Origin: Thermoanaerobaculales bacterium
GTDB taxonomy: Bacteria; Acidobacteriota; Thermoanaerobaculia; Thermoanaerobaculales; Sulfomarinibacteraceae
Assembly (NCBI GenBank): GCA_029287235.1
Contig: JARFRM010000039.1
Coordinates: forward strand, 1-50,681
Length of the DNA stretch: 50,681 bases
Direction of reading: 5' to 3'
The translations under genes were made by a program, and so were the position numbers. Shown in pieces: positions 14,804 to 33,410 of this stretch (positions are counted from its first letter, which is position 1; every line of letters starts with the position of its first letter). Under the pieces are notes generated by a model. It made no database searches, was not told the origin of the DNA, and saw only the letters and a program-made list of their open reading frames with translations.

Positions 14804-14960
14804 TCCTGACCCTCCTTGCGGACTCCGCACCCGAGAAGCCCGCGTTGTTTCTTCTCACTCCGATTGAAGGCAACGCGAGTTTAGCAGCGCCGATGGGATC
14901 GCCTCCAGTCGAGCCGTTGGGGGCGCGATGTTGTTCGCTGCCGCTGCCGCTATCATCTCA

Positions 14961-15012
14961 TCGGGATCGGGATCGGGATCGGGATCGGGATCGGGATCGG
15001 GATCGGGATCGG
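14961..15012. repeat. TCGGGA hexamer microsatellite, 8.7 perfect copies
   Basis: 52 bases of uninterrupted period 6 in the 217-base gap between two minus-strand genes. GCGATG lies at 14925-14930, followed by CTGCCG words. The array starts 8 bases past the KAS III stop. Confidence 0.95.
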
Positions 15013-23040: not shown

Positions 23041-23045
23041 TTCAT

Positions 23046-23222
23046 AAGCTCTTAGCTGTCAGCTATTAGCTATTAGCCTATCGCAGTGGATCGCGTTCAT
23101 CGAGCTGATGAAGTCGCATCCTCAGAGCCGCAACGGTCAACTTTTCGGTTTGGAATACTCGACTCGATCGACTCAGGAGAGCTGCGATGAAGCTCAGAGC
23201 TGAAAGCGAATGGCTGACAGCT
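23046..23222. repeat. Facing AGCT-type heptamer arrays in a convergent gap
   Basis: Left array 23046-23079 (TTAGCTGTCAGCTATTAGCT and following) starts 5 bases after the WcaJ stop and ends in TATCGCA. Right array 23190-23222, reading on the minus strand AGCTGTCAGCCATTCGCTTT, abuts the TGA of the enoyl-CoA hydratase and is preceded by GCGATG at 23184-23189. The two are inverted and about 70% alike. The middle 100 bases show nothing recognisable. Confidence 0.75.
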
Positions 23223-27522: not shown

Positions 27523-27918
27523 ATGGACCAGCTGCCCTTTGTCACGACGATCCAGGTTCGGTGGCGCGACATCGACGCCAAGAACCATGTCAACAACGCC
27601 ACCATCGTGACCTATCTCGAGACCGCCAGAACCGAGCTCTGGCGGCAGCGTTTCGGCGGCGGCATCGACATCCCCTTTGTCGTCGCCCGAGTCGAGGTTG
27701 ATTTTCGTCGCCAAATCACGATCGACGACGAGGTCAGAATCGGCCTGTGGGTGGAGGATCTCAAAGGTGCGAGCTATGTCTTCGCCTACCGGATCGAGGC
27801 TGACGGTCATCACGCAGCCGAGGGGCGGACTTTGATGGCCCATATCGGTCCCTCTGGTCGACCCACGCGCATCGGACCGGAGATGCGCGCCAAACTCGAG
27901 ACGCTGCTCCGGAGTTGA
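27523..27918 (+). CDS. Acyl-CoA thioesterase, hot-dog fold (YbgC/FadM-like)
   Basis: 131 residues, ATG 27523. The N-terminal QVRWRDIDAKNHVNNATIVTY carries the catalytic Asp of the 4HBT family (WxDxDxxxHVNN). It ends with VDFRRQITIDDEVRIGLWV and a substrate-tunnel strand, normal length for the family. It hydrolyses acyl-CoA thioesters; chain length unknown. Its stop codon TGA (27916-27918) lies inside the first GTTGACA unit of the long repeat element that follows. Confidence 0.9.
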   Translation: MDQLPFVTTIQVRWRDIDAKNHVNNATIVTYLETARTELWRQRFGGGIDIPFVVARVEVDFRRQITIDDEVRIGLWVEDLKGASYVFAYRIEADGHHAAEGRTLMAHIGPSGRPTRIGPEMRAKLETLLRS

Positions 27919-28325
27919 CAGTCACCGGACGGAGTTGACAGTCGACAGTTCACAGTTGACAGTCACCAAGAGAGTTGACAGTCGACAGTTGACAGTTGAC
28001 AGTTTCATCGCAGTCATCGCAAAGGCGGAGGGGCGCAACCGCCCGACTCACTCTCCCGAGACTGCGGTGTCCGATGTAGGGTGGGGTTAATCCTACCTTC
28101 AGTGTCCTCGCGGTCGGTACGCCGCCGCCACGTCAGTCAGACGACTTCGAATTTACTTTCAACCCGCTCTCAACTGTGATGGCTCTGGGACGAACTTCGC
28201 GTCCTTTGCGCCTTGGTGGTTCAAACCTGCGATGTCGTGGTGATAGCTTTGTGCCTTCGCGTCTTCGTGGTTACGACGTTGCGATGGAAACTGTCAACTG
28301 TGAACTGTCAACTGTCGACTTCACA
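27913..28325 (+). repeat. Composite repeat element, copy A (about 400 bp)
   Basis: Starts GGAGTTGACAG across the thioesterase stop. Order: GTTGACA heptamers to about 28002, CATCGC twice (28004, 28013), a conserved core with AAAGGCGGAGGGGCGCAACC and GACTGCGGTGTCCGATG, a variable middle, then CAACTGTGATGGCTCTG, phrases ending at GCGATG (28229 and 28281), and facing TGTCAAC heptamers to about 28320. Nearly the whole element recurs inverted at 30195-30616. No gene is present in the 415-base gap. Confidence 0.88.
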
Positions 28326-28333
28326 TCCGACCG

Positions 28334-30103
28334 TCACTCCTCGAGCTTCAGCCACTGGAACCAGATCGGATGGTGTTTCTGATACCACGCAAGGACCTCC
28401 TGGATGAGCGACTTCTTGTCCGGCGGGAGGACGGCGTCATCCACCTGGTCGAAGTTGACCACCATGCGGTCGTTGGGGAGGTACTCGATGGCCTCCGAAC
28501 AAAGGGTCTGGAGCTCGTTGCGGATCCGCCCCGAGTCCGAGATCTTGACCGCCCGACTGCGATGGTCCTGGCCGGCGTAGAAACGATCGAGCAGCGGTGA
28601 GAAGACCATTCGCATTTCGTCCATGGGCTCCATCAATCTCAGACTCAGGGTCACATCGACCATGCCCGCCCTGGTGGCGGCACGAGTCGTGACTTTGTAG
28701 ACGTCGTCGCTGATCTGCTCGACACCGGGCATCCCGGTGTAGGGGTCGGTGAGCATGGCGGAGTTGAGGCTGAGAACCCGCCACTCCTTGTTGGGGAAGA
28801 AATCGTCGGCCGTTGATGTGCGCAGACCCACGGGCATACAAGCAGCGGTGGCTTCGCGGAGATTGGCGCGGTAGATCTCGACGATGTCGTCATCGACTTC
28901 CTGGCCGGCTGCCTCGGCCAGTCTTGCACCGTAGTCATCCGCTTCCGGATCGAGGCGCATGAGCAGGTGCTCCCGGTCGTAGGCGATCTTGAAACGCGAC
29001 GAAAACAGGCACATGGAGGTCTCGGTGTCGAGGATGGGGTCCAGACTCGCCCCTTGCACCGCCTCGGCCGAGGCCGAGTACCCGTCGCAGATGAAGAGAT
29101 GGCGCTCTCCTTCGCGTTCGGATGGTCCGACAAGGTAGACGGGCGCGTAGGTCCCGGATTCGGTGAACGCCGGAATTCCGGTGCTCGGGATGGTCCATCC
29201 GTCCTCGACGATGTGGGCGCCCAGTGAACGCCACTCGTCCCAGAGTTTGCCGATGCGGTGCTTCCGAGACGAACCACCGAGGGTCCAGACGTGGACGTTT
29301 TCGGGTTTGATGTCCGGATAGGCGGCGAGGATAGCCTCCATCACGAGCCGCCGCGGGGTGAGGTAGTCGATGAGGATCGATCGTTCCGCGGCCTGGTGAA
29401 CGACTTCCCGCGGCAGGATGAGATTGCCCATGTAGCCCTCGTAGGGCCGGGACACCTTGAGCGGTTGGTCGAAGAGGTGGAAGACCGTCAACGGGCCCGT
29501 GGGAGCGCCTTTTGCGAACCGGGAGGTGTTCTCCAGGGTGTCCAAGGCCGCCCCCCACACCGTGATCCCGGCTGTCTGGATGTCACGCCAGAACTCGGGC
29601 CACTCGTATCCATCTTCGTTGAGCATCCGGTGGACGCGGCGGTCCACGAAGCGGGCAACCTGAGGTCTGGCGTAGACCCGGCCGAAGCCGAGCTGTGGAT
29701 TGGAGCCCATCTCGGGTGTTTCTCCGGCCTTGGGCATGAGGCCCTCGCCGAGACTGACCATGACCGCGTGATTCTCGGGGAGATTCCGGGTGAGGTACCA
29801 GAGCGCCTCCGACAGGGCGTAGGCCGAGACGGCATCGGCGTCCTTTTTGACACGGTTGACGATGGCCTTGTCCTGACCCTTGCCCTCGGCGTAGCGGCCG
29901 AAGAGACGCGTACCCAGAGCGGTGACCGCGTTGGCGATGATGAATGCGCGCTCGAGGGACTCGCCGACGAAGGCGTGGTCCGCCGCCGTCCGATCGCCGA
30001 TCCAGGCTTCTTCCACGTCTTCAAGCCAGAGGTGGAAGCGTCCGAGGACACCGCGGGTGTCGTAGGCCCATTGGGCAACGCGATTTCGGCGGTCGTCGAT
30101 CAT
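28334..30103 (-). CDS. Conserved-looking 589-residue protein, function not recognised
   Basis: ATG 30103 has GGAGGA 4 bases upstream. Globular, acidic-neutral composition with no signal peptide, no membrane helix and no motif I can tie to a family. Segments that look structured: GEGLMPKAGETPEMGSNPQL, RPYEGYMGNLILPREVVHQA, SILIDYLTPRRLVMEAILAA, VHVWTLGGSSRKHRIGKLWD, and EWRVLSLNSAMLTDPYTGMP. The length, even hydrophobicity pattern and strong start site argue for a real cytosolic enzyme or structural protein. It is bracketed by inverted copies of a 400-bp repeat element. Its stop lies about 13 bases inside the left copy's end. Confidence 0.75.
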   Translation of the reverse strand: MIDDRRNRVAQWAYDTRGVLGRFHLWLEDVEEAWIGDRTAADHAFVGESLERAFIIANAVTALGTRLFGRYAEGKGQDKAIVNRVKKDADAVSAYALSEALWYLTRNLPENHAVMVSLGEGLMPKAGETPEMGSNPQLGFGRVYARPQVARFVDRRVHRMLNEDGYEWPEFWRDIQTAGITVWGAALDTLENTSRFAKGAPTGPLTVFHLFDQPLKVSRPYEGYMGNLILPREVVHQAAERSILIDYLTPRRLVMEAILAAYPDIKPENVHVWTLGGSSRKHRIGKLWDEWRSLGAHIVEDGWTIPSTGIPAFTESGTYAPVYLVGPSEREGERHLFICDGYSASAEAVQGASLDPILDTETSMCLFSSRFKIAYDREHLLMRLDPEADDYGARLAEAAGQEVDDDIVEIYRANLREATAACMPVGLRTSTADDFFPNKEWRVLSLNSAMLTDPYTGMPGVEQISDDVYKVTTRAATRAGMVDVTLSLRLMEPMDEMRMVFSPLLDRFYAGQDHRSRAVKISDSGRIRNELQTLCSEAIEYLPNDRMVVNFDQVDDAVLPPDKKSLIQEVLAWYQKHHPIWFQWLKLEE

Positions 30104-30194
30104 TCAGTCCTCCCGGTCATGGCGCTGTCGTCATGGTAGGGCACACTGTGCCATGACGCGGCTCGTATCTCAAGGGGAGGAGTCGAGGAACGAG

Positions 30195-30616
30195 TCCACA
30201 GTCAACAGTTCACAGTTGACAGTTTCCATCGCAACGTCGCAAACACGAAGACGCGAGGACACAAAGAAATCATCAAGACATCGCGGGGTTGAACCGCCAA
30301 GGCGCCAAGGACGCGAAGTTCGTAGCAGAGCCATCACAGTTGAGGGCAGGTTGAAGGTGGATTCCACGCGACGGCAGGAGTGGAATGTGAACGGGGCCGG
30401 CCCGCGGGAGCGGTGGCGGCCACCGCTCACCCGCTCATGACGTTGGGTCGCAAGCCGCACAGCGGTGCCGCAACCCCACCCGACATCGGACACCGCAGTC
30501 TCGGGAGAGTGACTCGAGCGGTTGCGCCCCTCCGCCTTTGCGATGCCTGCGATGAAACTGTCAACTGTCAACTGTCAACTCTCTTGGTGACTGTCAACTG
30601 TCAACTGTCAACTCCG
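30195..30616 (-). repeat. Composite repeat element, copy B (inverted relative to copy A)
   Basis: Read on the minus strand it starts CGGAGTTGACAG across the stop of the Rmd-type gene. It repeats copy A's order: heptamers, two CATCGC words, the GGCGGAGGGGCGCAACC core, a GC-rich middle that differs (with a GAGCGGTGG / CCACCGCTC hairpin at 30409-30429), CAACTGTGATGGCTCTG, the two phrase modules, and facing heptamers. By eye the shared parts are about 85-95% identical. The 504-base gap holds no gene. Confidence 0.88.
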
Positions 30617-31570
30617 CTCCTTCTCTCGCCACCAGTTCAGGAGATCGTTGAGGGTCTGCTTCAGTGGGATCTCCGCCCTCCACCCGGTGGCGGCCTCGAT
30701 CCGGGCGGGGTCTCCCACCAGCCAGGGGATGTCCGAGCGACGGAACCGATTCCCGTCGATCTCGATCGAGATTTCGCGCTCGCTCATCTCGAGTAGGAGC
30801 TTAACGACCTCGGAGATGGCAACTGCGCGGCCGGTGCAGACGTGAAAGACCTCACCTGCGTGGCGACGATCTGTCGCCAAGCGGCAGGCGCGAACGGCAT
30901 CCCGGATATCGGTGAAGTCCCGCACCGAGTCCAGATTTCCGACCTTCAGCCTTGGTGGATCGAGACCCAGCTCGGCCCGAGCAATCTGGCGCGCGAACGA
31001 GGACGCCACGAAATGGGGCGGTCGCCCGGGCCCGGTGAGGGGGAAGAAGCGTATTCGGATCGTGGCCATGCCGCGACCGGTGTGGAACTGTTCGGTGAGA
31101 AGATCCTGGGCCGCCTTCGAGGTCCCGTAGGGCGATATCGGCGCCAGAGGTGTGCTCTCGGTGATCGGCGCACCAGTGTCGGTGATCCGGCCGTAGATCT
31201 CGGCCGTTGAGGAGACCACGATCACCGGGTCGATCCCCAGCCGGAGGATGGCCTCGTAGAGATGGGCGGTTCCCACGGCGTTGATCTCCAGCGACCGTGC
31301 GGCGAAATCCCACGATCGCGCCACGGATGAGGCGGCCGCGAGGTGATAGATGATATCCGGCTGCGCCCGGGCGAGAATCGGCGCGATGCTGCCGGGATCG
31401 ATCAGATCACCCTCGATCAGGTGAATTCCAGGTGCGGCATTCTCGAGGGTTTGCCGGTCGAACTCCCCCCAGGTCAGGCCCCAGATGTCGGCTGTGGCGT
31501 CGTGGGTTCTCAGCTCTGCGATCAGGTGGCTCGCGACAAAGCCGGTGATGCCGGTGATCAGAATGCGCAT
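30608..31570 (-). CDS. NAD-dependent epimerase/dehydratase, GDP-6-deoxy-4-keto-mannose reductase-like
   Basis: 320 residues of the extended short-chain dehydrogenase fold: LITGITGFVASHLIAEL (TGxxGxxA nucleotide loop), YHLAAASSVARSWDF, VVSSTAEIYG, and catalytic SPYGTSKAAQD (Y-x3-K). The overall pattern fits Rmd/GMD-type enzymes that make GDP-rhamnose, consistent with a nucleotide-sugar supply for the nearby glycosyltransferases. It overlaps the rfbD-like gene by 13 bases. Its TGA stop is inside a GTTGACA repeat unit. The exact sugar nucleotide is inferred. Confidence 0.85.
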   Translation of the reverse strand: MRILITGITGFVASHLIAELRTHDATADIWGLTWGEFDRQTLENAAPGIHLIEGDLIDPGSIAPILARAQPDIIYHLAAASSVARSWDFAARSLEINAVGTAHLYEAILRLGIDPVIVVSSTAEIYGRITDTGAPITESTPLAPISPYGTSKAAQDLLTEQFHTGRGMATIRIRFFPLTGPGRPPHFVASSFARQIARAELGLDPPRLKVGNLDSVRDFTDIRDAVRACRLATDRRHAGEVFHVCTGRAVAISEVVKLLLEMSEREISIEIDGNRFRRSDIPWLVGDPARIEAATGWRAEIPLKQTLNDLLNWWREKERS

Positions 31571-33182: not shown

Positions 33183-33188
33183 CGGAAC

Positions 33189-33384
33189 CAACAGTCGACA
33201 GTTGAAATCAGAAGTTGACAGTCGAGAGCCCATCGCAGCCGAGCTTCGAGGACGTTGTTGCCGAGGTTGCAGGATGGAAACCCGTCGCGTTGGCCCTGAG
33301 ATGATCTGTCAACTGTCAACTGTGAACTGTCAACTGTCAACTGTGAACTGTTGACTCCCGCCGGTGACTGTCAACTGTGGACTC
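33189..33384. repeat. Facing GTTGACA heptamer arrays in a convergent gap
   Basis: Left array (33189-33226) has GTCGACA and GTTGACA units on the plus strand, following folE. CATCGC lies at 33230. Right array (33304-33384) reads GTTGACA/GTTCACA on the minus strand, facing the secreted-protein gene that ends at 33411. Each array puts the TGA-bearing strand on the sense strand of its own neighbour. Confidence 0.85.
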
Positions 33385-33410
33385 AAGGCGAACTGTCGGC
33401 ACGCGTCCCG

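Follow-up and report, generated by a model that had tools for sequence, protein, structure and literature searches.

Degenerate heptamer arrays in intergenic DNA are familiar from the cyanobacteria, where they are called short tandemly repeated repetitive (STRR) heptanucleotides and are accompanied by small nested dispersed repeats. We know of no description of the cyanobacterial STRR sequences that includes facing pairs of one word at both gene ends. The arrays described below belong with two other groups of bacterial heptamers. The first is the GGGAATC arrays of Xanthomonas, which often occur as convergent pairs and lie mostly within 50 bp of stop codons; that report describes a single G-rich word in both of the species studied and discusses it as a quadruplex former (Rehm et al. 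2015, PMC4692102). The second is the TAACTGA direct repeats of Beggiatoaceae, Cyanobacteria and Bacteroidetes, whose mechanism of spread was not evident; they are for the most part solitary arrays that lie immediately before start codons, and only one inverted set is reported from the Maribeggiatoa genome (MacGregor 2015, PMC4679880). REPINs and MITEs are also small noncoding intergenic units with inverted ends but, according to reviews, their ends are defined, their interiors are homologous to each other and a transposase family mobilises them (PMC3116915, PMC10969869), features that we did not find in the heptamer-ended units considered here.

The arrays of the present genome consist of at least two tandem 7-nt units in intergenic DNA. 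As in Xanthomonas, inverted array pairs lie near gene ends and, like the TAACTGA repeats (PMC4679880), the arrays are abundant and their forward units provide stop codons. However, the word is AGTTGAC / TTGACAG, which has no G tract and is not of the G-rich quadruplex type. Relative to what the available parts of the Xanthomonas and TAACTGA papers describe, two things are added. Inside the arrays are layers of CATCGC words and phrase modules, and such layers and copied interiors do not appear in those parts of the Xanthomonas description; furthermore, the words differ between congeners at the same sites, unlike the single Xanthomonas word (PMC4692102). This turnover of words between congeners is the unusual part. 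A search of the literature on repeats in Thermoanaerobaculia found nothing relevant among openly licensed papers, a scope that may have missed earlier reports.

The DNA analyzed, hereafter the window, is a stretch of 50,681 nt from a 5.07-Mb draft genome of 336 contigs; its source is an uncultured member of the Acidobacteriota related to Thermoanaerobaculales. It contains two noncoding, intergenic sequences of about 400 nt each, copy A (27910-28320) and, in inverted orientation, copy B (30193-30616), which stand on either side of one gene. The first-pass annotation had described them as a composite repeat with common ends and a different middle, each copy opening across a stop codon, and the alignments bear this out. 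Three inverted pairs of blocks, 27977-28088/30472-30583 (112 nt, 95% identity), 28149-28320/30193-30364 (172 nt, 87% identity) and 27940-27997/30556-30613 (58 nt, 95% identity), match far above chance level. When copy A is aligned with the reverse complement of copy B, the homology extends from one set of end arrays through to the other and is interrupted by the middle alone, which is 60 nt in A (28089-28148) and an unrelated 107 nt in B (30365-30471).

Copy A reads as follows. The left facing arrays (27910-28004, plus strand) are made of TTGACAG, TCGACAG and TTCACAG units and include a 40-bp internal tandem duplication of 2.2 copies (27913-28003), so that the part of A homologous to B starts at about 27930. 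Two CATCGC words (28006-28011 and 28015-28020, plus strand), the core that begins with GGCGGAGGGGCGCAACC (28021-28088, plus strand) and the unshared middle, delimited by the alignment with B, come next. The link CAACTGTGATGGCTCTG and two period-8-like phrase modules, of a kind dispersed in the genome, occupy 28149-28286 on the plus strand, and each module is followed by GCGATG (28229-28234 and 28281-28286). The right facing array, of CTGTCAA units (28289-28320, minus strand), ends 13 nt from the stop codon of the enclosed gene (28334-30103, minus strand). Copy B begins on the start-codon side of that gene with an array at 30193-30224 (plus strand) and then has the other elements inverted relative to A, on the minus strand: the phrase modules, CATCGC words (30227-30232 and 30279-30284) and link at 30227-30364, a middle that contains the palindrome GAGCGGTGGCGGCCACCGCTC, the core and its GCGATG words (30540-30545 and 30549-30554) at 30472-30554, and the facing arrays of CTGTCAA units (30556-30583 and 30587-30616) at 30556-30616. 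The sequence CGGAGTTGACAG spans the TGA of the thioesterase gene in A (27916-27918) and that of the epimerase gene in B (complement of 30608-30610), and therefore the first heptamer supplies the stop codon in both copies. The gene on the epimerase side (30608-31570), called Rmd-like in the first-pass annotation, encodes a GDP_Man_Dehyd/Epimerase family protein. The enclosed gene encodes a 589-aa protein with no match in Pfam or NCBIfam and no relative among solved structures; it is conserved in Acidobacteriota, Myxococcales and Eisenbacteria MAGs at 53-89% identity. Rfam, at gathering cut-offs, had no family that matched anywhere in the window.

The arrays obey a facing rule. In 450 kb of this genome there are 25 TTGACAG arrays, as compared to about one in shuffled sequence, and 23 of them are nearer to the gene end from which the array reads inward. 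Part of the 450 kb was picked for its arrays, and so the density is not a genome estimate, but orientation is unaffected; genes for these counts were predicted with a simple codon model. The arrays are 2 to 25 units long, and the 25-unit example, which is unusually long and of the TTGACAG type, follows immediately on a stop codon (L135:14048-14222, contig C131). We compared three species of the genus, all of them MAGs and none at strain level: the present one, the nearer G001 and the more distant G002. In the window's genome, 12.7% of intergenic regions have three or more inverted 7-mers in common between their two ends, versus 3.7% (sd 1.5) when ends are re-paired; in G001 the figure is 15.9% versus a permuted 4.3%, while direct sharing shows no clear excess in either genome; in G002 the same test gave no significant excess of inverted sharing. 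Such inverted-end gaps are most frequent between convergent genes (31% in the window's genome, 36% in G001). Tandem-repeat calls of period 5-9 from 14 genomes include 40 inverted versus 4 direct same-word array pairs within one intergenic region. All eight of the G001 regions with period-7 arrays at both ends have matching words (3.6 expected on re-pairing, P ~0.003). A single genome can hold several array words; for period-6 pairs the coupling by locus was not significant.

Most of the modules of A and B are not peculiar to them. TTGACAG arrays, CATCGC words and phrases of the CTTTGCGCCTTGG/CTTCGCGTCTTCG type recur at dozens of other intergenic loci of the same genome, and the window itself has a third TTGACAG-type slot at 33183-33410 (arrays 33215-33228, plus, and 33306-33347, minus) and a further facing-array slot with the word AGCTATT at 23041-23222. 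In the sampled intergenic regions CATCGC/GCGATG occurs 179 times versus 54 expected, and its pairs point inward in 97 cases and outward in 13. An order-4 Markov test did not find CATCGC to be an over-represented 6-mer in G001 or G002; therefore, this module is strong mainly in the window's genome. Other mosaic repeats also share modules and often have their boundaries at CATCGC or at phrase ends, and the interiors of the other TTGACAG-ended loci are mostly unrelated to each other. Hexamer arrays occur as well, such as a perfect (ATCGGG)8.8 in a gap of the window (14960-15012), and CGGGAT/CGTCCG-type hexamer arrays are common in the congeners, often facing each other.

The core is different. 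It is confined to A and B in the 5.07-Mb genome, a search of plasmids with core and phrase had no match, and 60 related genomes yielded no full copy; the matches there were short pieces, chiefly from the phrase part, in congeners and other members of the family. A core absent elsewhere, together with conservation of the two copies in the same position in distant relatives, had been named in advance as the mark of a vertically inherited local duplication. The absence was found and the conservation was not, which makes the duplication recent and lineage-specific.

Our preferred explanation, held with no more than middling confidence, is that A and B are intergenic cassettes bounded by arrays, and that such cassettes pass copies of their contents from slot to slot. 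By a slot we mean a gap between genes with degenerate arrays of a short word (AGTTGAC, period 7, in the case of A and B) at both ends reading inward from the gene ends; inside these there are usually CATCGC...GCGATG, then period-8 phrase modules and, in the middle, variable DNA. The pair most likely arose when one slot received a copy of what the other contained, perhaps through ectopic gene conversion or the repair of a double-strand break, for which the arrays common to both would have offered the landing homology. This would explain why the homology starts and stops inside the arrays, and the inverted orientation would follow from their facing inward, which allows either orientation. Of the two possibilities raised by the first-pass annotation, a non-autonomous mobile unit or a recombining cassette, it is the cassette that agrees with these boundaries and with slot B of G001, described below, which has the same array ends around an unrelated interior. 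We infer the copying by recombination from such patterns. Because the shared blocks differ in divergence (5% in the 112-nt block, 13% in the 172-nt block), a single copying event is not certain, and with only two copies of the core no series of conversions can be traced. Overall, the picture is more that of intergenic filler that changes rapidly than that of a classic transposable element: slots are often common to sister species, but the interior is renewed and both terminal arrays often have a different word.

Gene order from the glycosyltransferase through the malic enzyme is conserved in G001 and G002, where the enclosed protein is 89% and 83% identical, respectively. In G001, slot B is bounded on both sides by TCGACAG arrays that enclose about 130 bp of unrelated DNA, and at slot A the right array is present with a different CATCGC/phrase interior; in G002 neither slot has heptamer arrays. 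For 14 further array slots of the window's genome the orthologous gaps were located by their flanking genes. Those of G001 mostly have AATTCTC, AATTCTT or AATTATG arrays facing around CATCGC...GCGATG, those of G002 have TCGACAG, AATGATG or AGTTCTT arrays or are empty, and the reverse comparison from G001 slots gave the same picture, although weaker. When scored automatically, 27 of 44 gaps orthologous to array slots contained period-7 arrays, versus none of 17 gaps orthologous to control gaps (Fisher P = 5e-6). These cases are linked rather than independent, with two species to each slot and C124 reached both ways, and the controls are a small set with short gaps among them. Period-8/9 phrase arrays do turn up in part of the gaps orthologous to the G001 controls. 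Of the array slots of the window's genome whose counterpart has a period-7 array, 9 of 11 in G001 (with AATTCTC or AATTATG types) and 4 of 9 in G002 have a word of another type there. For example, slots C25, C124 and C131b have TYGACAG in the window's genome and in the more distant G002 and AATT-type words in G001, which suggests that the word was replaced at both ends in the G001 lineage or that there was loss and re-insertion.

One way to read these differences is that slots are inherited as slots and that the word at both ends is replaced in concert in each species by a process that would write or copy from the gene ends inward. We regard this as a tentative and rather unlikely reading; if true, it would be comparable in logic to the turnover of telomere repeats. 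A point against the cassette explanation is that recombination between non-identical words cannot by itself replace the word. At slots C77, C205 and C121 the promoter or terminator DNA that flanks the arrays is homologous between species and the interiors are not, and no homologous interiors, which would have proved a change of word in place, were found at orthologous slots. Consequently the words need not have changed in place, and gaps with arrays may just be permissive ones that were filled anew, independently of each other.

The alternative that A and B are copies of a non-autonomous MITE- or REPIN-like element, with the heptamer arrays as terminal inverted repeats and a transposase acting in trans, is also unlikely, to about the same degree. 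It would fit the inverted ends, the lack of coding capacity, the dispersal of same-word ends at dozens of loci in one lineage and the near-empty orthologous sites such as C208 (188 bp in the window's genome, 13 bp in G001). However, same-ended loci mostly share no interior, the core being common to A and B only, array length is not fixed, and sister species have different words in the same slot. Slots whose orthologues are near-empty showed no target-site duplication, in a comparison of species too diverged for exact sites. A search for the Y1 family found no transposase linked to heptamer-ended units: of 17 hits in the window's genome the 12 loci inspected have other ends. Hence the mobile-unit half of the earlier proposal, in the usual MITE sense, is not retained, and a classical MITE is unlikely. 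The units also lack the GTAG/CGTC-tagged REP hairpins that accompany a Y1 RAYT in REPIN systems.

Genuine MITE- and REPIN-like families with homologous interiors are present in this genome, a point in favor of the element alternative, but they differ in appearance from the heptamer-ended units. One MITE-like family of about 170 bp has ends TCTAGGAGCCTGCACCGCATAGA, homologous interiors and copies up to 96% alike (L119:6214-6382 and L121:16997-17165, also L121:15627-15853 and L129:15808-16033), and a REPIN-like unit of about 150 bp with inverted ends GTAGGGTGGGCCTGGGCCCACC is present in at least two gaps (L125:17518-17666 and L126:1909-2057). The Y1 transposase genes (about 320-336 aa; L287-L297, e.g., L295, L291 and L287) are flanked by inverted stretches of about 25-40 nt tagged GTGCCA(G/C)G, with inner sequence that varies from copy to copy; the congeners have 2-3 Y1 hits each as compared to the 17 here.

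Somewhat less probable again is that the arrays are paired hairpin arms, serving as terminator, transcript-end protector or insulator of convergent transcription, with selection on pairing while the words drift. Facing arrays can pair, and so a hairpin role at transcript ends is possible: as single-stranded DNA, those of copy A fold together (z -5.3), and several slots in three species fold better than shuffled sequences. The peak of inverted-end gaps at convergent genes and the position of the Xanthomonas arrays near stop codons (PMC4692102) point the same way. However, the arms can be as much as 400-600 nt apart, certain slots have an array on one side only, or none, in a sister species, and the divergent gap C205 also bears arrays. 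In addition, point mutation with selection would hardly convert many units to a single new word.

Symmetric addition, in which both 3' ends at a break or stalled fork would be lengthened in a telomere-like manner by copying one template, so that one word is written inward from either flanking gene, and would afterwards be joined with filler DNA between them, would account for inward same-word arrays with shared ends around unrelated interiors and for the same new word at both ends. We nevertheless consider it improbable. One and the same genome has more than one word, the analysis identified neither a template RNA nor an enzyme, and templating by a reverse transcriptase is disfavored by the absence of RVT_1 from the array-bearing G001 (99% complete) and G002 (91%). 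As for the earlier suggestion that the pair could invert the 28334-30103 gene, two long inverted repeats do flank one gene, but a switch is very improbable since that gene has a single orientation in G001, G002 and the other family members with the same neighbors, the repeats are lineage-specific and no recombinase was recognized among the neighboring genes examined.

Heptamer arrays are scattered over many bacterial phyla. Three congeners that have many slots in common and different words in them allow a direct comparison that bears on how such arrays originate and why they face inward. The same comparison addresses whether the arrays move, are rewritten in place or serve a function at transcript ends.
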